A DNA stretch of 64,000 nucleotides from Candidatus Kuenenia stuttgartensis. GTDB lineage: Bacteria; Planctomycetota; GCA-002687715; CAIWVZ01. A program made the translations under genes and the position numbers. The stretch spans positions 62,001-126,000 of the forward strand of contig CAMARR010000003.1 of the NCBI GenBank assembly GCA_945860915.1, in the 5' to 3' direction. Shown piece by piece: positions 36,370 through 45,948 of this stretch. The notes beneath the pieces were generated by a model. The model ran no database searches. It was not told the origin of the DNA and saw only the letters and a program-made list of their open reading frames with translations. Within the stretch, counting starts at the first letter, position 1. Each line of letters begins with the position of its first letter.

Positions 36370-37878
36370 GTGAAAGCGCAGATATTGATCCTCTCGGGGC
36401 CGCAACGGGGGAAGACCGTCACCTCCGGCAAGGATTCGATTCTCATCGGCGGCGACCCCACCACCGAGGTGTGTGTGGGATTGGGTCCGCAGATCAAGCC
36501 GATCCAAGCGAAGCTGATCTACGACCACGACGCGTGCGCCTTTCACTTGCGCCGAATCGACGGCCACGTCTTCGTCAATCACAACGAGATCGAAGAGATC
36601 ATTTTGGCCGAGGACGATCTCATCGAGATCGGAATCAACGGGCCACAGGTCCGATTTCGGACGTACCCGGAGCTCGGTTCGGTTTGCAAACCGGTTCACC
36701 GCATGTTGCGCGACGCGCGCGACGTGAAGGACAAAACTGGTTCCGTGCAGGCCGCTGGTTTGGCTCTCTTCCGCGACCTATTCACTCAAGCCACCTGGCA
36801 ACTCAAGGTGTTCTTCCCGATTGGCGTTGCCGCATTGGTGTTCCTAATTTCCCTCGGCGCCGGATGGATGGGTGGGCATCTCGACACAGACCAGGAAGCC
36901 GAAATGGCGCGGCTGCGTGACGAAAGTCGTCGATTCTCCGAAGAACTCGATTCACAGCGCAAGGCGACCTCAGCTGCGCTTGAGCGAGTCACACGAGATC
37001 TGGAAGCGCAGCAAGTCGCAGCATCGCGGAATGTCTCGTCCAAGGACCTCGAGACTCTTCGAGCAGAGTTCTCGGCACGTGCCGTCGCCATCGACGACAT
37101 GATCAAGAATGATGCCGCACTCAAGCACGTCTTAGAGGAAGACTCTAAGTCGGTGGCGCTCATCCACGGGTCGGTTGGATTCAAGACGTCGGCTGGAGTG
37201 TGGCTCAAAGACCGGGATGGCGACCGCATTGAACTCGAGTACACGGGCTCCGGGTTCATCATCACAGCCGACGGCATCCTCGTGACCAACCGGCATGTCG
37301 CACAGCCATGGTGGAAGAACGACTCCGCCCAGGCGGCAATTAGCGCCGGTTGCTCGCCGGAGTGGCTGCGTCTTGTGGCCGTGTTTCCTAGTCGCAAGCC
37401 GATCGACATCGACCCCAAGAGCATTCGCCTGCGTGCGGACGAGATCGACGTGGCACTGATGTCCGTCAAAGCGGATGGACTCCTTCCGCTTCCTCTCAGC
37501 GAAGCCGACCCCAAGTCACTGCGCGGTCGTCGCATTGTGCTGCTTGGCTACCCGACTGGAGTGAAGGCCCTCTTGGCCAAGGCTGAACAGGATGTCGCAG
37601 AAGCAGTGACCGCAACAGCCAATTCGCTTTCCGAAGTCTTAGAGGGTCTCGCAAGCCGCGGAGCCGTCGCACCTGTCGCGACACAGGGCGCCCTCAACGA
37701 TGTCGGCGTTTCGAAACTCGTCTTCGATGCCGACACGACATCCGGCGGATCGGGCGGTCCCATCTTCGGACCCGATGGCCGCGTGATAGGTGTCGCATTC
37801 GCCATTGTCCGTGACTTCGGCGGATCCAATCTAGGTGTGCCGATTCGCTTCGCCAAGGAACTCCTATCGAAGCCCTGA
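36370..37878 (+). CDS. FHA domain - transmembrane - coiled coil - trypsin-like serine protease
   Basis: 502 residues, GTG start. Residues 1-95: FHA-like fold (AQILILSGPQRGKTVTSGKDS, ILIGGDPTTEVCVG, QAKLIYDHDACAFHLRRIDG, VFVNHNEI, EEIILAEDDLIEIG), which would read phosphothreonine in the cytoplasm; the Arg/Ser pair of classical FHA is not clearly kept. One membrane helix at ~142-162 (VFFPIGVAALVFLISLGAGW), then a long coiled coil (~170-255). The C-terminal chymotrypsin-fold protease (275-502) has the triad in TNRHVA (His), EIDVALM (Asp) and TSGGSGGP (Ser). The protease would be extracytoplasmic, so the protein could couple intracellular phospho-signals to envelope proteolysis. Confidence 0.88.
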   Translation: MKAQILILSGPQRGKTVTSGKDSILIGGDPTTEVCVGLGPQIKPIQAKLIYDHDACAFHLRRIDGHVFVNHNEIEEIILAEDDLIEIGINGPQVRFRTYPELGSVCKPVHRMLRDARDVKDKTGSVQAAGLALFRDLFTQATWQLKVFFPIGVAALVFLISLGAGWMGGHLDTDQEAEMARLRDESRRFSEELDSQRKATSAALERVTRDLEAQQVAASRNVSSKDLETLRAEFSARAVAIDDMIKNDAALKHVLEEDSKSVALIHGSVGFKTSAGVWLKDRDGDRIELEYTGSGFIITADGILVTNRHVAQPWWKNDSAQAAISAGCSPEWLRLVAVFPSRKPIDIDPKSIRLRADEIDVALMSVKADGLLPLPLSEADPKSLRGRRIVLLGYPTGVKALLAKAEQDVAEAVTATANSLSEVLEGLASRGAVAPVATQGALNDVGVSKLVFDADTTSGGSGGPIFGPDGRVIGVAFAIVRDFGGSNLGVPIRFAKELLSKP

Positions 37879-39046: not shown

Positions 39047-39616
39047 TCAGTTGGATCGGAAACCAGACAGCGAATTCGGCGGCAGTGGGAACGGCAACTC
39101 GGCTCTGGCCATCGCGTCGTCCCAGAGATCCTCTGCCGGTGTTCCGAGCAACGTCTCGGTCTCAAGGTCGACAACGTCCCATGATCCCTCGTTGATTTCG
39201 TCTTCAAGTTGGCCCTTGGACCACCCTGCGTAGCCGCGCATAAATCGAAAAGAACTTGGAGCAGGGTCTCGAGCCGACGCGTGCGCCACGTTTGTGAGGA
39301 GCTGGAGATCGCCTCCAAGCCACAGGCCGTCGCGAATGAGTGACCCAGACGAATCGAGATCTCCGCGATTATGGACCACCCAGGCAACCTCCGGCTGAAC
39401 TGGGCCTGCGATCCACACGACGTCGTGTCGAAAATTGAGCCCCTTCATCGAACCGACCAATTCGCCTATTCGAAGCGGCGTCGGTTTGTTCATTACCAAG
39501 CCCGTTGCTCCACGCGATGAGCTGTAATCGATCAACACGATGACGGATCGAGCAAACACCGGCCCGCTTACGGGTTGGTGCGCGACAAGAGAAACACCCT
39601 TGCGAAGACCCTTCAT
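39047..39616 (-). CDS. YqgE/AlgH family protein
   Basis: 189 residues with the family pattern: SLVAHQPVSGPVFARSVIVL, SSRGATGLVMNKPTPL, AGPVQPEVAWVVHNRG, WLGGDLQLLTNVA, RFMRGYAGWSKGQLEDEINEG and SWDVVDLETETLLGTPAEDLWDDAM. The family is widespread (AlgH influences alginate in Pseudomonas) but its biochemical role is unresolved. ATGA overlap with the acyltransferase upstream. Confidence 0.93.
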   Translation of the reverse strand: MKGLRKGVSLVAHQPVSGPVFARSVIVLIDYSSSRGATGLVMNKPTPLRIGELVGSMKGLNFRHDVVWIAGPVQPEVAWVVHNRGDLDSSGSLIRDGLWLGGDLQLLTNVAHASARDPAPSSFRFMRGYAGWSKGQLEDEINEGSWDVVDLETETLLGTPAEDLWDDAMARAELPFPLPPNSLSGFRSN

Positions 39617-40335
39617 GGAGAGACTCTACCGCGAAATCCATCGGACGCAGATGCGTGCCATGCCGTGGTCCACGCGGCGTGGATGCGCTCGGCAATCTCA
39701 TTTGAAGTTAGGCCTGCGACACCAAACGGTTCGAGGAAGTCGATTCTAAGGTCGCGCCGCCACGTGGGCGGGCCATAGCGAAGCAACACCGGCCAGACTT
39801 CGACAGACACTCCGCGCGCGGAAGCAGCCACAGCTGACTCGATTTCATGCGTCCCTCGAATTGGTCGCACGTGATCATTGTCGCGCGTCCCCTCGGGAAA
39901 GAAAACGAGCGGTTGTCCTCGATCAAGGATCTCGCGCCGCACGTCATCTGCCTCCGCATTGATCGAAGCCATGACCTGCATGGCTTCATCCTTCGTCAGG
40001 CCGCGGCGTTCCTTGAGTCGGAGGATCTCCTTCGGGCGCATCACAGGGAAACCTCCGCAGACTCGGAGGAGCGGCACGATCCTTCCAAGCACCGCATAGC
40101 CGACAAATGAACCCATTTGAAAGTTGGATCGAAGCCCGAGCAACGCGTGTACCTGCCACGACATAGCGGGGATATCCCACCCTGATCCATGTTTCGCGGC
40201 AACGAGCACAGCACCAGTCGGTCGACGACCGTGCGAAACGACCGTCACACGATGGCGAAGGCGAAGCAACCAGGAGGACACTAGATTCGTGGGGTGCCAC
40301 AGCCAGGGGAGAATTCGGATCTTGGAGTCGGACAT
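39613..40335 (-). CDS. PlsC-like lysophospholipid acyltransferase
   Basis: 240 residues. Acyltransferase motif I HGSGWD (HX4D) in VLVAAKHGSGWDIP, and motif III FFPEGTRDND (FPEGTR). It would transfer an acyl chain to 1-acylglycerol-3-phosphate or another lysolipid at the membrane. The sequence WLLRLRHRVTVVSHGRRPTG at the N-terminus is in line with PlsC-like proteins lacking long TM helices. Starts 38 bp after the SEC-C gene and overlaps algH by 4 nt. Confidence 0.9.
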   Translation of the reverse strand: MSDSKIRILPWLWHPTNLVSSWLLRLRHRVTVVSHGRRPTGAVLVAAKHGSGWDIPAMSWQVHALLGLRSNFQMGSFVGYAVLGRIVPLLRVCGGFPVMRPKEILRLKERRGLTKDEAMQVMASINAEADDVRREILDRGQPLVFFPEGTRDNDHVRPIRGTHEIESAVAASARGVSVEVWPVLLRYGPPTWRRDLRIDFLEPFGVAGLTSNEIAERIHAAWTTAWHASASDGFRGRVSP

Positions 40336-40373: not shown

Positions 40374-40880
40374 TCAGCCATCAAAGAGCTTGGCGCAGCA
40401 GACCTTGTACTTCTTGCCCGACCCACAAAAACACGGGTCGTTCCGTCCGAGCTTAGTGCCAGGGCGTTTGAACGGGACTTGCGGAGCATCACTGCGACGT
40501 CGCCCGCGCGTCGGGTCGGCGCACGCGGTCTGGAAGGCCGACCGTGCGGCTCCGACAGCCATGACGATCTCGAATGGACTGACGCCCGGCTGCTGCGCGA
40601 TTGAAAAAAGCAGAAACTCTTCGAGAAGGTCGGGGACATCATCAAGCCAAGCCTCGGACCCACCCACACGTGCGGGTAGATGGCTTGTCAGCATCTCGCG
40701 CACGCGCTCGCCGTCGAGATCGCGTGGCGTCACCGCAACATCTTCTGAACACACTGCGACCATGACTTCTAGAATCGGCGCAAGGGAAGCACCCAAGCGC
40801 TCCGTCGCACGACGACCGGCGTCTCCGTCACGAAATGACGCGGCGAGGAGTCGCCAGTAATCCACGAGACCGTCCGTCAT
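40374..40880 (-). CDS. SEC-C motif protein coupled to the MNIO enzyme
   Basis: 168 residues. The C-terminal 27 residues are a SEC-C zinc-binding motif (GRNDPCFCGSGKKYKVCCAK; CXC...CC). The N-terminal ~130 residues are an uncharacterised, mostly helical domain (YWRLLAASFRDGDAGRRATERLG, DDVPDLLEEFLLFSIAQQPGVS). It overlaps the upstream DUF692 gene by 4 nt (ATGA), so the two are translationally coupled. SEC-C binds zinc and often mediates ribosome or protein contacts. Here it may be an adaptor or, more speculatively, a cysteine-containing substrate of the neighbouring iron enzyme. Confidence 0.85.
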   Translation of the reverse strand: MTDGLVDYWRLLAASFRDGDAGRRATERLGASLAPILEVMVAVCSEDVAVTPRDLDGERVREMLTSHLPARVGGSEAWLDDVPDLLEEFLLFSIAQQPGVSPFEIVMAVGAARSAFQTACADPTRGRRRSDAPQVPFKRPGTKLGRNDPCFCGSGKKYKVCCAKLFDG

Positions 40881-42658
40881 GACGCGGAGTCACCCGCGAG
40901 CAACACGCCATCGCGCACCAAACTTGCCGAAAGTTCGCGCACTTCGGCGACGTCTACCTCAAAGTCGCGGGCGATCGCGAGAAGATCCTCTTCCGCAAGC
41001 GGAGAAATCGCCGCCGCACGCAGCAGCGATGCTGTCCCTGGATCCAGTATTTCTGCGGCTCCCGTCGGGACTTTGAATGCGTCGATGCAGGCCCCCGGAG
41101 ACAAAAGGATGAACTCATCTTCGTCGCCAAGCTCGGGTCGCGGCAAGCCATTGAGCTTGCCGTTTCTGAGCGCCGCCAAGACAGCGAGCCATCCATCGAG
41201 TGTGCCTTCGGGACACGCGACGACCGCGACGGCCCCCGAGACCCCGAGCGTTCCCTTCGACGGCCGCGGCCCCGGCGATGTACGCCGAACACTGACAAGC
41301 GCTTGCTCGAGATAAGCCACGCTCTTTAAGAATCGATCGTCGCGCGTCTTCACTCGTTCGACCGCATAGGAAGCGAAACCGATGGGAAGCCTCCCTTGTG
41401 ACGCAACCGTGTTGTGAAAATGGTCCGTTCGAACAAACTCCGCGACGAATCCAGGGTCCGCTTGATGATCCATCGCAAGTGCGACCGTTGCCGAACACTC
41501 GAGACTGGCGTTCCCCAACACTTGCGCCGCACGACGACCACCGTGATCAGCAGTGACACCCTCGATTGGCGCTGCGATCAGCAGATCACGCGCAATGGGT
41601 TCGAGGCCGTCCCCCTGTCTCGAAACCGAATCACCCGCCCGCCACGCCCTTGCAAGGCCAACGTCAAGCTCACAACGGAAGAGAAACCGCTGGAGCGGCA
41701 TCAGAGCGTTCGGTGCGAGTGTTGGTGTGGGGTCTTCTGAGCGAACCAGCTGCGTCGATGCAGCACGTGCATGGGGCTGACGCGTAGGCGCGGAGGCATT
41801 CCAAGCATTTACCACGCGTTGGAAAAGCGGAACAACTTGCTGGATCGGATTGCGTTCGCACTCGACAACCACCGCCCTCAGATTATTCGCGCGGCCCATC
41901 ACGAAGTCCAGCATGTCCCACAACTCGGGGAGGGGCTCCACTCCGTGGTCATCATCAACGAAGATCTTCCCGGCGTGACGGAAGGGTGAACCTCCGGCAA
42001 CATGGATTTCAACCACCCTCCACCAAGGGAAGTCGGTGAAGCCGTCGAGTGGCGCATGTCCCGTCACTCGCTGGTAAACGGCGAGATGCGCGAGGTCGAT
42101 GAGAATCGCCGAATCCGCGTGATCCGCAACACGGGCCCAATAGTCGAGCAGGTGAAGGCGCCCGAGGTAGACATGCGCAGGAGGGTTTTCAGGAAGCACC
42201 TCGAATCCAGTGGCTTCGCGCAGACGCACGACGGACTCGGCCATCAGGCGAGCAGATGCGGGCTCGAGAATCGGTGGCTGAAGAAGCCCATGGCCGCGAT
42301 CTCTTGCGCCCGCATGCCAGAGTCCGGCGTCGCCGCAAAGCCAAACCGCATTAGCCTGCCGGGCGAGTGCCGCCGTTGAGTTCATCCAGTCGTTCGTCAG
42401 ACTCGATGGGTCTTCGAGATTCGCGTCAAGGAAGTGATAGGTCGTCGGTGCGCCCGTCGAGATCCAAGCCTGCGCCGTGGCGTCCATGCCGCGATCGAGA
42501 TCGGCTCCGATCTCCAGGAACCTAGCAAACTCTCCGTGCGAGCTGCGCAACTCGAGCGGATCGACGCCCGACCGACTCGCGCCAAACTCAGTCGAGATGC
42601 CTACGCCGAGCTCGGGAAGCCGCGCAATGCGATCTGCAAAGGAAGACGCGTGAGACAT
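40877..42658 (-). CDS. DUF692/MNIO-type multinuclear iron enzyme fused to a partner-like domain
   Basis: 593 residues. Residues ~15-285 fit the MNIO (DUF692) TIM barrel: LGVGISTEFGA, TTYHFLDANLED (H75), EVLPENPP (E157/N158), ILIDLAHLAVY (D188/H191), VVEIHVAGG (E217/H219), VDDDHGVEPLPELW (D235/H238), VVVECERN (E266). These correspond to the metal-ligand positions of TglH/MbnB-like oxidases that modify cysteine or aspartate in ribosomal peptides. Residues ~300-593 are an added region (LMPLQRFLFRCELDVGLARA; FLKSVAYLEQALVSVRR; a final helical LLRAAAISPLAEEDLLAIAR) resembling the separate partner proteins (HvfC/MbnC/TglI-like) that bind substrate. Starts 9 bp after glmM and is coupled to the SEC-C gene. 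Substrate unknown. Confidence 0.75.
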   Translation of the reverse strand: MSHASSFADRIARLPELGVGISTEFGASRSGVDPLELRSSHGEFARFLEIGADLDRGMDATAQAWISTGAPTTYHFLDANLEDPSSLTNDWMNSTAALARQANAVWLCGDAGLWHAGARDRGHGLLQPPILEPASARLMAESVVRLREATGFEVLPENPPAHVYLGRLHLLDYWARVADHADSAILIDLAHLAVYQRVTGHAPLDGFTDFPWWRVVEIHVAGGSPFRHAGKIFVDDDHGVEPLPELWDMLDFVMGRANNLRAVVVECERNPIQQVVPLFQRVVNAWNASAPTRQPHARAASTQLVRSEDPTPTLAPNALMPLQRFLFRCELDVGLARAWRAGDSVSRQGDGLEPIARDLLIAAPIEGVTADHGGRRAAQVLGNASLECSATVALAMDHQADPGFVAEFVRTDHFHNTVASQGRLPIGFASYAVERVKTRDDRFLKSVAYLEQALVSVRRTSPGPRPSKGTLGVSGAVAVVACPEGTLDGWLAVLAALRNGKLNGLPRPELGDEDEFILLSPGACIDAFKVPTGAAEILDPGTASLLRAAAISPLAEEDLLAIARDFEVDVAEVRELSASLVRDGVLLAGDSAS

Positions 42659-42667
42659 GATGTCGAC

Positions 42668-44008
42668 TTATGTCAGAGATTCTGTGGCGACACCCATGAG
42701 ATGCGCCATCCAACGATCAACCATATCGCGCCGTCGCCCCTCAACCATGATGCGAAGCAGAGGCTCGGTCCCCGACCATCGGATGAGGACACGTCCCTCA
42801 CTGCCCATTTCCTGCTCCGCTGCCGCGATGGCCTCGGGCAATCCTGCGATTGCTGCGATGGGAACCTTGGCTTTCGCGTGAATATTCTTAAGCACCTGAG
42901 GGAAGGTCTCCATTTCACGCGCGAGCTCGGCCAGCGCCATGTCACGGCGCGTCATCACCTCTAGAACACGAAGGGCCGCATAAAGTCCGTCGCCCGACCA
43001 GCGGGCGCCTTCGCGAAAAATGATGTGCCCCGACTGCTCGCCACCGAGAACGGCTCCCATCTCGTCCATCTTTTGAGACACAAAGCGATCACCTACCGGC
43101 GTGATCTCAAGCTTGATGCCATCGTTCTTTACGAAGTGGTGAAGACCTAGGTTTGACATCACCGTTGTCACAAGCAAACGGTCGACGAGTTCACCTCGCG
43201 CTGCGAGATCCCGAGCAAGGATGCCCATGATGGCGTCGCCATCGCGCAGCTTGCCATCTTCGTCCAACATCAAGACTCGATCAGCGTCTCCATCAAGTGC
43301 AATCGCAATCGCCCCGCGATGCCGTCTGACCAGTGGCGCCATCGCTTCAACCGCGACGACTCCCGCGTTGTCGTTGATGTTGTGTCCTGTCGGCTCCGCG
43401 TTCACAACGACGACGGACGCACCCAGCGCATTCAGGAGCTCCGGTCCGATGGAAGACGCGGCGCCGTGCGCACAGTCGAGAATCAACGTGCGACCTACGA
43501 GGGACAGCTTCGTTAGCCGTTGACGCATAGCTGCGACGTAGCGATGCGATGCGCCTTCATCCTTGCTCCGGAGCGCCCGAGGCGCCGCGACGATGCCGGG
43601 GTCCTGATCAATGAGTGTCTCAATCCGGATCTCATCCGCGTCGGGCAATTTGCGGCCGTCACGTCCAAAGAACTTGATGCCATTGTCCGGCGCAGGATTG
43701 TGTGACGCCGAAACTACAATGGCGAGATCGAAGCCCTCTTCCCTCGCGATCCACTGCACGGCAGGCGTCGTGAGAATCCCACCGTCGGACACGGCAACTC
43801 CCGCCCCAAGGAATCCAGACGCTAGGGCATCGGTCATCCAGGGGCCCGACGTGCGTGTGTCGCGACCAATCAGAATGCGGCGTGAGCCACCCATTGACGC
43901 CACGTAGGCACCAGCAGCACGGCCATAGGCCTCGACACGTTCGCGTGTGAGAGCCCCAACGCCCGCGAGACCTCGAATGCCATCGGTTCCGAAATACTTG
44001 CGACTCAA
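42668..44008 (-). CDS. glmM: Phosphoglucosamine mutase
   Basis: 446 residues, TTG start, N-terminus LSRKYFGTDGIRGLAG (FGTDGIRG is diagnostic). Active-site serine loop VVSASHNPAPDNGIKFF, metal-binding ALDGDADRVLMLDE, sugar loop GEQSGHI, phosphate loop IRWSGTEPLLRIMVEG. Interconverts glucosamine-6-P and glucosamine-1-P for UDP-GlcNAc (peptidoglycan, LPS). Sits 9 bp after cdaR, the order conserved in Firmicutes and Chlamydia, where GlmM binds and inhibits the c-di-AMP synthase. Confidence 0.97.
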   Translation of the reverse strand: MSRKYFGTDGIRGLAGVGALTRERVEAYGRAAGAYVASMGGSRRILIGRDTRTSGPWMTDALASGFLGAGVAVSDGGILTTPAVQWIAREEGFDLAIVVSASHNPAPDNGIKFFGRDGRKLPDADEIRIETLIDQDPGIVAAPRALRSKDEGASHRYVAAMRQRLTKLSLVGRTLILDCAHGAASSIGPELLNALGASVVVVNAEPTGHNINDNAGVVAVEAMAPLVRRHRGAIAIALDGDADRVLMLDEDGKLRDGDAIMGILARDLAARGELVDRLLVTTVMSNLGLHHFVKNDGIKLEITPVGDRFVSQKMDEMGAVLGGEQSGHIIFREGARWSGDGLYAALRVLEVMTRRDMALAELAREMETFPQVLKNIHAKAKVPIAAIAGLPEAIAAAEQEMGSEGRVLIRWSGTEPLLRIMVEGRRRDMVDRWMAHLMGVATESLT

Positions 44009-44017
44009 CTCGCCCCC

Positions 44018-45163
44018 CTAGTTCGATGAACGAATCACGGTGACTTCCACGGGACTTGGCTCGACACTCTGCAACTTGAGGCCGGTCGGAATTCTGAAGA
44101 CCTCCACCGAAACCGACTCGGCGGCAAGCACTCGGGTTCCTTCTGAGACCGCCGCGCGCGCGACAAGGCGATCGGTGTCGATCTCAGCGCGCAACATTCT
44201 ACGGAGTTCCTCCAAACGAGAAGGATCGCGCCATGCGTCGACGATGGAACGAGCGCCCGACAACCGAACGGTCACGACGGGCCTCTCGCTGTCGAGCGGC
44301 TTGGGCAGCACAAATCGCCAGTTCGCTCCCGGTGACACGGCCAGACGCAGTGCGACCCGCGGCACCTCAATCGATGCGTCTTCGGCGGGGACGAAACTGA
44401 CCGTGGCCTCAATCACCTGGCGAGCGTCGAAACGAATGAACTTCTGACCGAACTCGGGTGGCAACGAGTTGAGGACGGTCTTAAAGTCCGACGTTCGCCC
44501 CCCACACGGGATCTGCAGCATCGCCTCCGAAATTGCACTTGGACCCTCAAGCCAAGACGCCGGACCGAGCACGCGCGCTGTGGGCGGATCAATTGCGACC
44601 TTTGCCGTCAGGGTCCCGGCGACGTCGAACGCTTGACCAATGAGCCTCACTTCTCGGGTTGCCAAGCGATCAAGGATCACCTGCACCGGCGGGAATAACT
44701 CCGCCGTGACAGTGCCGAGCCCCGTTTCGACGTCCTTGCCGTCGATTGCCCGTGGAGTCTCGTTGCCGCGCTCGCCAGGAGCGCGCTGTAGCCACGATTC
44801 GCGCAAGGCCACGCTCGCAGACACGCGGCGCGTGTCCTTGAGGCTACCCGCAAGCCTCTGCGGCCCGCGAATGACTAGCCTCGCGCGCGGTGTGTCAACT
44901 CTCCGAACGGCGACGTTCCCTTCCGGAGTCAGCAGCAATTCGCGACGCAATGCCGATGTCGGGCGACTCGCCGCGGCATCGGCGACCACCACATCGACTT
45001 CGCCGTCAAACAGCGTCACCTGCTGTTCGCGGTCAATGATCGCGATCAGAACGCTCGCGAGAATGATCGCGAGGATCTTTGGGAAAAGGTGGTCCGTGAG
45101 GAGCCCGCGGACGAACCCGTGACGTTCGCTCGTACGAGTCAAACGTTGATTGCCGGTGCTCAT
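44018..45163 (-). CDS. cdaR: YbbR-domain membrane protein, CdaA regulator
   Basis: 381 residues: one N-terminal helix (LFPKILAIILASVLIAIID), then YbbR-like repeats (ARLVIRGPQRLAGSLKDTRRVSASVAL; VQVILDRLATREVRL; AKVAIDPPTARVLGPASWLEG). Predicted extracytoplasmic with a cytoplasmic N-terminus. CdaR homologues modulate c-di-AMP synthesis by CdaA. The gene overlaps cdaA by 4 nt (ATGA) and precedes glmM, giving strong positional support. Longer than a two-domain YbbR protein and Arg/Val-rich in between. Confidence 0.88.
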   Translation of the reverse strand: MSTGNQRLTRTSERHGFVRGLLTDHLFPKILAIILASVLIAIIDREQQVTLFDGEVDVVVADAAASRPTSALRRELLLTPEGNVAVRRVDTPRARLVIRGPQRLAGSLKDTRRVSASVALRESWLQRAPGERGNETPRAIDGKDVETGLGTVTAELFPPVQVILDRLATREVRLIGQAFDVAGTLTAKVAIDPPTARVLGPASWLEGPSAISEAMLQIPCGGRTSDFKTVLNSLPPEFGQKFIRFDARQVIEATVSFVPAEDASIEVPRVALRLAVSPGANWRFVLPKPLDSERPVVTVRLSGARSIVDAWRDPSRLEELRRMLRAEIDTDRLVARAAVSEGTRVLAAESVSVEVFRIPTGLKLQSVEPSPVEVTVIRSSN

Positions 45164-45948
45164 GCCCCCTCCGTCACATCTGTCGCATCTTCGGGAGGCA
45201 CGGGAAGAAGTAGCACTTCCCTGAGGCGTTCGAGCGAAACTCCGGTTTCCAACTTACCGCGTCGGGCGACGGAAATACGCTGTGTTTCTTCCGACACCAC
45301 AATCGCAATCGCATCTGAATCTTCGGTCACTCCGAGAGCGGCTCGGTGTCGTGTACCAAGGGTTCGAGCCAACGTCGCGTTCTCGGATAACGGCAGCATG
45401 CAACCTGCTGCGACAATTCTCTCGCCGCGCAACAAAAGGGCGCCATCGTGGAGCGGAGAATCCTTGGAGAAAATCGACACGATCAGCGCCGGACCGACCG
45501 CCGCGTCAACCCGAACAGCCGCTGGCCCTTCGATCAGGCCTCCCAATCCGTCCCCGCCTTCTACAACGATGATCGCGCCAAGCCCCCGCTTGGCGAGTCG
45601 GTCGACCGCAGTCACAAGCTCCTCCGTCGCACCTTTGCTGACGCGAGAAAGCCCGAGAAGGAACTCGGAGTCACCGAGTGAAACCAAGGCTTGCCTCAAC
45701 TCAGGCTGAAAGACCACGAGAAGCCCGATGACGACAAAAGCCATTCCTCGATCAGCGATCCACTGAATACGCTGGAGATCGAGGGCCTTTGCAAGCGAAA
45801 TGCCGCCGACAAGGAAGACTACGACGACAAAAATGAACCCCTTGAGAACTCCTGATCCCCGGGTCTCCTGCAAGAAGCGAATGCAGGCGTAGATGACCAT
45901 CGACAGGATGAGGATCTCGATCGCCGTCCGAAGCCAGTCCATGTTCAT
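45160..45948 (-). CDS. cdaA: Diadenylate cyclase (c-di-AMP synthase)
   Basis: 262 residues: three N-terminal helices (ILILSMVIYACIRFL; GFIFVVVVFLVGGISLA; GMAFVVIGLLVVFQPELRQAL), then the DisA_N catalytic domain with DSPLHDGALLL (DGA) and TLGTRHRAALG (RHR). It condenses two ATP into c-di-AMP at the membrane, governing potassium/osmotic and cell-wall homeostasis. ATGA overlaps with folP upstream and cdaR downstream show tight coupling. Confidence 0.96.
   Translation of the reverse strand: MNMDWLRTAIEILILSMVIYACIRFLQETRGSGVLKGFIFVVVVFLVGGISLAKALDLQRIQWIADRGMAFVVIGLLVVFQPELRQALVSLGDSEFLLGLSRVSKGATEELVTAVDRLAKRGLGAIIVVEGGDGLGGLIEGPAAVRVDAAVGPALIVSIFSKDSPLHDGALLLRGERIVAAGCMLPLSENATLARTLGTRHRAALGVTEDSDAIAIVVSEETQRISVARRGKLETGVSLERLREVLLLPVPPEDATDVTEGA

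Follow-up and report, generated by a model that had tools for sequence, protein, structure and literature searches.

Does the 593-residue protein encoded at this planctomycete locus unite an MNIO (DUF692) enzyme and its partner protein in a single chain, and, if so, where is the substrate encoded? A preliminary description of the DNA had proposed such a fusion, suggested that a translationally coupled SEC-C protein might be its substrate or adaptor, and pointed to the placement of the two genes inside a cell-wall/c-di-AMP operon.

Genomic Locus and Gene Arrangement

The window, that is, the whole stretch of DNA analyzed (64,000 nucleotides), comes from the 2.37-Mb, 87% complete MAG of a planctomycete in which the 593-residue fusion is the only DUF692 protein. 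Both predicted ORFs, of 593 and 168 codons, are present, and the 4-nt overlap (ATGA) through which they were thought to be coupled was verified. The locus comprises the following features.

40877..42658, minus strand: fused gene for MNIO and partner (P0001), 593 aa; ORF, Pfam, and 62-63% identity to the fused counterparts in the other two genomes of the genus
41789..42658, minus strand: MNIO (DUF692) TIM-barrel domain, residues 1-290; PF05114, Foldseek, and invariant columns
41711..41788, minus strand: linker, residues 291-316, without Cys; AlphaFold2 pLDDT ~70-74 around residues 291-310
40880..41710, minus strand: partner (PME-type) region, residues 317-593; separate downstream homolog, hhalign, and Foldseek
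40374..40880, minus strand: SEC-C protein (P0002), 168 aa; SEC-C match and ATGA overlap with the fused gene
42668..44008, minus strand: glmM-type phosphoglucosamine mutase, the upstream neighbor (context only); PGM_PMM domains
44018..45163, minus strand: protein in the ybbR position (context only); no Pfam match, located between cdaA and glmM, conserved in the order
45160..45948, minus strand: cdaA-type diadenylate cyclase (context only); DAC and CdaA_N
39613..40335, minus strand: acyltransferase, the downstream neighbor (context only); PF01553

The fused gene lies 9 nt from glmM and -4 nt from the SEC-C gene, with 38 nt to the acyltransferase gene that comes after. A sequencing artifact as the source of the fusion was ruled out, given that three genomes of the genus with different linkers agree; the two further genomes are both recorded as Planctomycetota. 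Elsewhere in the window (36370-37878, plus strand), a single protein combines an FHA-like N terminus (PF16697, weak) with a trypsin-like protease domain.

The linkage of cdaA and glmM is common to the order, and the flank examined after glmM in eight further genomes from that order contained neither an MNIO gene nor a SEC-C gene. The cell-wall/c-di-AMP placement is thus real in this genome but specific to the genus, so that the operon position carries little functional information; a functional tie to this operon was rejected on the same grounds.

The N-Terminal Half Is a DUF692 Protein with an Altered Set of Candidate Ligands

Residues 46-270 match PF05114 with 53.2 bits against a cut-off of 25 (E 3e-14). 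The whole fused chain, modeled with AlphaFold2 from an 87-sequence alignment, attained a pLDDT of 94 and a pTM of 0.92, and the best PDB folds recovered by Foldseek for the MNIO half were TglH (E 5e-11), HS_1138 (3bww), and MbnB, with TM-scores, by target length, of 0.70-0.79 to 8hci_B, 3bww, and 7dz9. The predicted fold therefore bears out the TIM barrel expected from sequence, with TglH, 3bww, and MbnB as the nearest solved structures.

Fourteen residues, namely, H75, C108, D110, H115, E157, N158, D188, H191, E217, H219, D236, H238, E266, and E268, are invariant in 48 relatives. They include the residues originally listed as ligands, except that D235 was wrongly chosen: Asp, Glu, or Asn occurs there, and the invariant residue is D236. 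The candidate metal-binding residues are H75, D110 (for which H115 could be an alternative), E157, D188, H191, H219, D236, H238, and E266. In TglH, the iron ligands are His71, His107, Glu151, Asp184, Asn187, His216, Asp229, His231, and Glu258 (PMC10880893), to which H75, D110, E157, D188, H191, H219, D236, H238, and E266 align in this order, the pairings of H75 and D110 resting on alignment to other DUF692 proteins because they fall outside the stretch aligned to TglH. Seven of the positions correspond (H75, E157, D188, H219, D236, H238, and E266); His107 is replaced by D110, and Asn187 by H191, an invariant His in the relatives compared. With two TglH iron positions altered, the metal set is possibly not canonical. 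Four residues past the anchoring Trp, the canonical MNIOs of the phylum have His, the present subfamily has Asp, and a sister group of planctomycete MNIOs (L009, L010, L011, and L012) has Glu. This sister group shares the LDxGH and ENPP/ENAP motifs, with His replacing Asn and Glu at the position of the SDH His, and at several of its loci a different, shorter gene comes next.

The C-Terminal Half Is an MNIO Partner

The chain extends ~277 residues past the MNIO domain and linker, and this region consists of a helical N-terminal portion (~317-460) and an RRE-like C-terminal portion (~471-593). Searches of the PDB with the partner region by sequence alone gave no significant match, so that structure and profile-profile comparisons were required. 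In hhalign, the partner profile aligned over 240 columns with DUF2063 proteins from this phylum, with a probability of 94-96 (E 8.5e-8 and 7e-9), the eight shuffled and one reversed controls remaining below 0.4. None of 55 partner-family members matches the DUF2063 signature itself. The partner model (pLDDT 94.8) yielded TglI (8hi7_A and 8hci_A), followed by NGO1945 (3dee), as its first three PDB matches in Foldseek; the RRE-like C-terminal domain gave only weak matches, to PqqD and TbiB1, with E above 1. The proposed likeness of residues 290-593 to HvfC, MbnC, and TglI was accordingly right in kind, by both profile and fold, but MbnC is absent among the matches. Taken with the gene pairing described below, the DUF2063 profile match and the TglI and NGO1945 folds identify the C-terminal half as an MNIO partner.

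At its N terminus, over the first 50 residues, the partner is similar to NHLP-type RiPP leader proteins (for example, residues 7-51 of the protein encoded at L115:7885-8739): NF038399 is matched by 24 of the 55 members (best E 1.2e-7) and PF14407 by 8, with the individually inspected scores below the curated cut-off. This similarity could stem from a helical recognition fold common to both or from a leader-like segment of ancestral origin.

The Enzyme-Partner Pairing Is Conserved and the Fusion Is Recurrent

A scan of 84,980 genomes for the subfamily motifs retrieved 80 loci, distributed among Planctomycetota, Myxococcota (Nannocystis, Enhygromyxa, and Paraliomyxa), Acidobacteriota, Eisenbacteria, and Krumholzibacteriota; within its own phylum, the subfamily is rare (10/392 genomes). 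In relatives from the same order and phylum, at 45-60% identity, an MNIO-only protein of ~290 aa is encoded ahead of a 250-320-aa protein homologous to the C-terminal half of the fusion. A partner is present in 76 of 82 loci, as a separate downstream gene in 67 and fused to the MNIO in 9, and two of the six partner-less loci stop at the edge of the sequence; the MNIO is kept without the usual downstream partner in L087, L101, L126, and L153. The separate genes overlap by exactly 4 nt in 49 of the 67 pairs. The association of enzyme and helper is thus genuine, and several bacterial phyla have preserved it.

All three genomes of the genus encode the fused form, with linkers that differ. Mapping the fused label onto a 75-row tree takes seven changes, at least four of which are forced by well-supported branches, suggesting that the fusion, or its loss, probably occurred several times. 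One Eisenbacteria MAG (HKST-UBA01) carries both a separate pair (L097) and a fused one (L113). The contig with another fused MNIO (L122) is labeled, most likely wrongly, as a Klebsiella pneumoniae MAG; the MNIO itself clusters with sequences from myxobacteria.

The SEC-C Gene Is a Local Neighbor

P0002 carries a SEC-C motif at residues 146-163 (38.2 bits against a cut-off of 20.4, E 1e-9), and the ATGA overlap recurs in all three genomes of the genus, as would be expected if the cysteines of the SEC-C protein were modified by the adjoining MNIO, the protein acting as substrate or adaptor. The distribution of its orthologs, however, makes this reading very improbable. At least nine further genomes encode orthologs that are 34-47% identical along most of the protein: in three (G008, G011, and G026), the full-length ortholog is on a different contig from the MNIO, and six (G003, G005, G007, G009, G014, and G029) have it without any close relative of this MNIO. 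No locus among those inspected outside the genus places a SEC-C gene beside the MNIO gene. The CxC...CC motif is retained in the aligned orthologs away from the MNIO, and CxC...CC is the ordinary metal-binding motif of SEC-C domains. Conservation of the gene pair across relatives, put forward as a check of the original proposal, therefore turned out to be confined to one genus; the overlap with the fused gene is a local arrangement, and the SEC-C protein was discarded as an MNIO companion. From these distributions, we judge that it probably plays no functional part outside this genus.

Neighboring Genes and the Search for a Substrate

The initial impression that no obvious precursor gene lies nearby holds, the intergenic gaps given above leaving no room for one. 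Across 82 loci, comparison of the 4,737 short ORFs lying up to 4 kb away revealed no conserved precursor peptide; such a search is blind to peptides that are very short or highly variable and to genes beyond that distance. The source genome, at 87% completeness, has no member of PF10048, PF09836, TIGR04222, or NF038399. A conventional RiPP system with a short, unannotated precursor gene near the enzyme would fit the ease with which short, variable precursors are overlooked, and PMC12452194 presents assignment without small ORFs as hazardous; nevertheless, because the gaps in the genus leave no space and the relatives share no small-ORF family within 4 kb, we consider such a system quite improbable. 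With no precursor gene adjacent, the most likely source of the substrate is a gene at another place in the genome.

No third gene, small or large, recurs across the 82 loci, the neighbors being lineage-specific and including genes for an S9 peptidase, a transketolase, a tricorn-like protease, a DUF5916 protein, and an esterase. In three planctomycetes (L034, L035, and L140), the pair is followed by genes for a secreted S9 prolyl oligopeptidase and an FAD-dependent oxidoreductase-like protein, and an S9 peptidase is also a neighbor in L112. Four related genomes (L077, L082, L083, and L089) have, after the pair, related genes for proteins of 770-900 aa, a transketolase where tested (L083).

Ordinary metabolic genes among the neighbors, such as that for transketolase, the two changed ligand positions, and the lack of a precursor recurring near the MNIO in 82 loci would also be compatible with an MNIO-like oxidase whose substrate is a small molecule or metabolite, the C-terminal half serving for stability or regulation only. 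This explanation appears unlikely, given that the C-terminal half is, by profile and fold, of the substrate-binding partner type and accompanies the MNIO in 76 of the 82 loci, and that the characterized MNIOs covered by PMC12452194 act on ribosomal peptides.

Proposed Function

The reading that we favor, and hold to be reasonably probable, is that MNIO and PME partner form one single-chain enzyme, which modifies a substrate specified by a gene at another site in the genome. The N-terminal TIM barrel would harbor a multi-iron center and carry out the O2-dependent oxidation of a side chain or the backbone of a peptide or protein, whereas the C-terminal PME-type helical domain, together with the RiPP-recognition-like winged helix, would bind the substrate and deliver it to the barrel in the way that TglI serves TglH. 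Most relatives distribute these functions over two genes that overlap by 4 nt; a single gene would unite them here and in several further lineages. The substrate, encoded at a distance, would be modified in trans.

A broader and more tentative proposal, which may well prove wrong, is that this MNIO-partner subfamily, whose members occur in Planctomycetota, Myxococcota, Acidobacteriota, and other phyla, no longer follows the gene-cluster mode and has become a free-standing, sometimes single-chain enzyme that modifies a dispersed protein substrate in trans and, with its altered ligand set (Asp at TglH His107 and His at Asn187), perhaps catalyzes a different reaction.

MNIO enzymes have nearly always been discovered via neighboring precursor genes, a route by which a widespread pair that lacks a common precursor would go unnoticed. 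A natural single-chain fusion of enzyme and partner poses no co-expression problem and fixes the assignment of partner to enzyme, which makes substrate fishing practical.

Comparison with Known MNIO Systems

Measured against NCBIfam equivalogs, the MNIO domain scores far below the cut-offs for BufB (46.7 of 310 bits, a weak match), ApyH (44.4 of 400), and HvfB (26.3 of 360). The partner is homologous, at the profile level, to the DUF2063 proteins (PME-type 1) of the BufB/BufC and HvfB/HvfC systems; a difference from these systems is that the source genome contains neither the bufferin precursor family PF10048 nor PF09836.

The partner family is common in Nannocystaceae, the group to which Plesiocystis pacifica belongs. 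PME-type 2 partners were defined by Antoine et al. in 2025 (PMC12452194), whose model D is a separate 276-aa partner from Plesiocystis pacifica; given the prevalence of the family in Nannocystaceae, this myxobacterial protein probably belongs to the family described here, a separate-gene form of which would then already have been modeled as PME-type 2. According to the same paper, PME-type 2 partners have a DUF2063-like fold without the DUF2063 signature and are encoded directly after the MNIO. Here, too, a separate gene follows the MNIO in 67 loci, the DUF2063 signature is unmatched in 55 members, and the folds are those of NGO1945 and TglI. The partners treated there are separate proteins, whereas the present one is fused; the accessible part of the paper describes fusions of MNIO to nitroreductase and the winged helix of MovX, but no MNIO-PME fusion. 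MovX, the Vibrio methanobactin-like MNIO, resembles the present protein in combining, within one chain, an MNIO with an extra domain that maybe does the partner's job, but that domain is described there (PMC12452194) as a winged helix only, compared with the full two-part partner found here.

The TglH/TglI holoenzyme of the pearlin (3-thiaglutamate) pathway is the top structural match for each half of the fusion and has a composition like that predicted here, an MNIO barrel with a partner made of a helical N-terminal domain and a C-terminal RRE, for which the fusion has an RRE-like domain. It differs in being split into two chains, in having a known precursor (TglA), and in using His107 and Asn187 as iron ligands (PMC10880893), where the alignment places D110 and H191 in the single chain described here.
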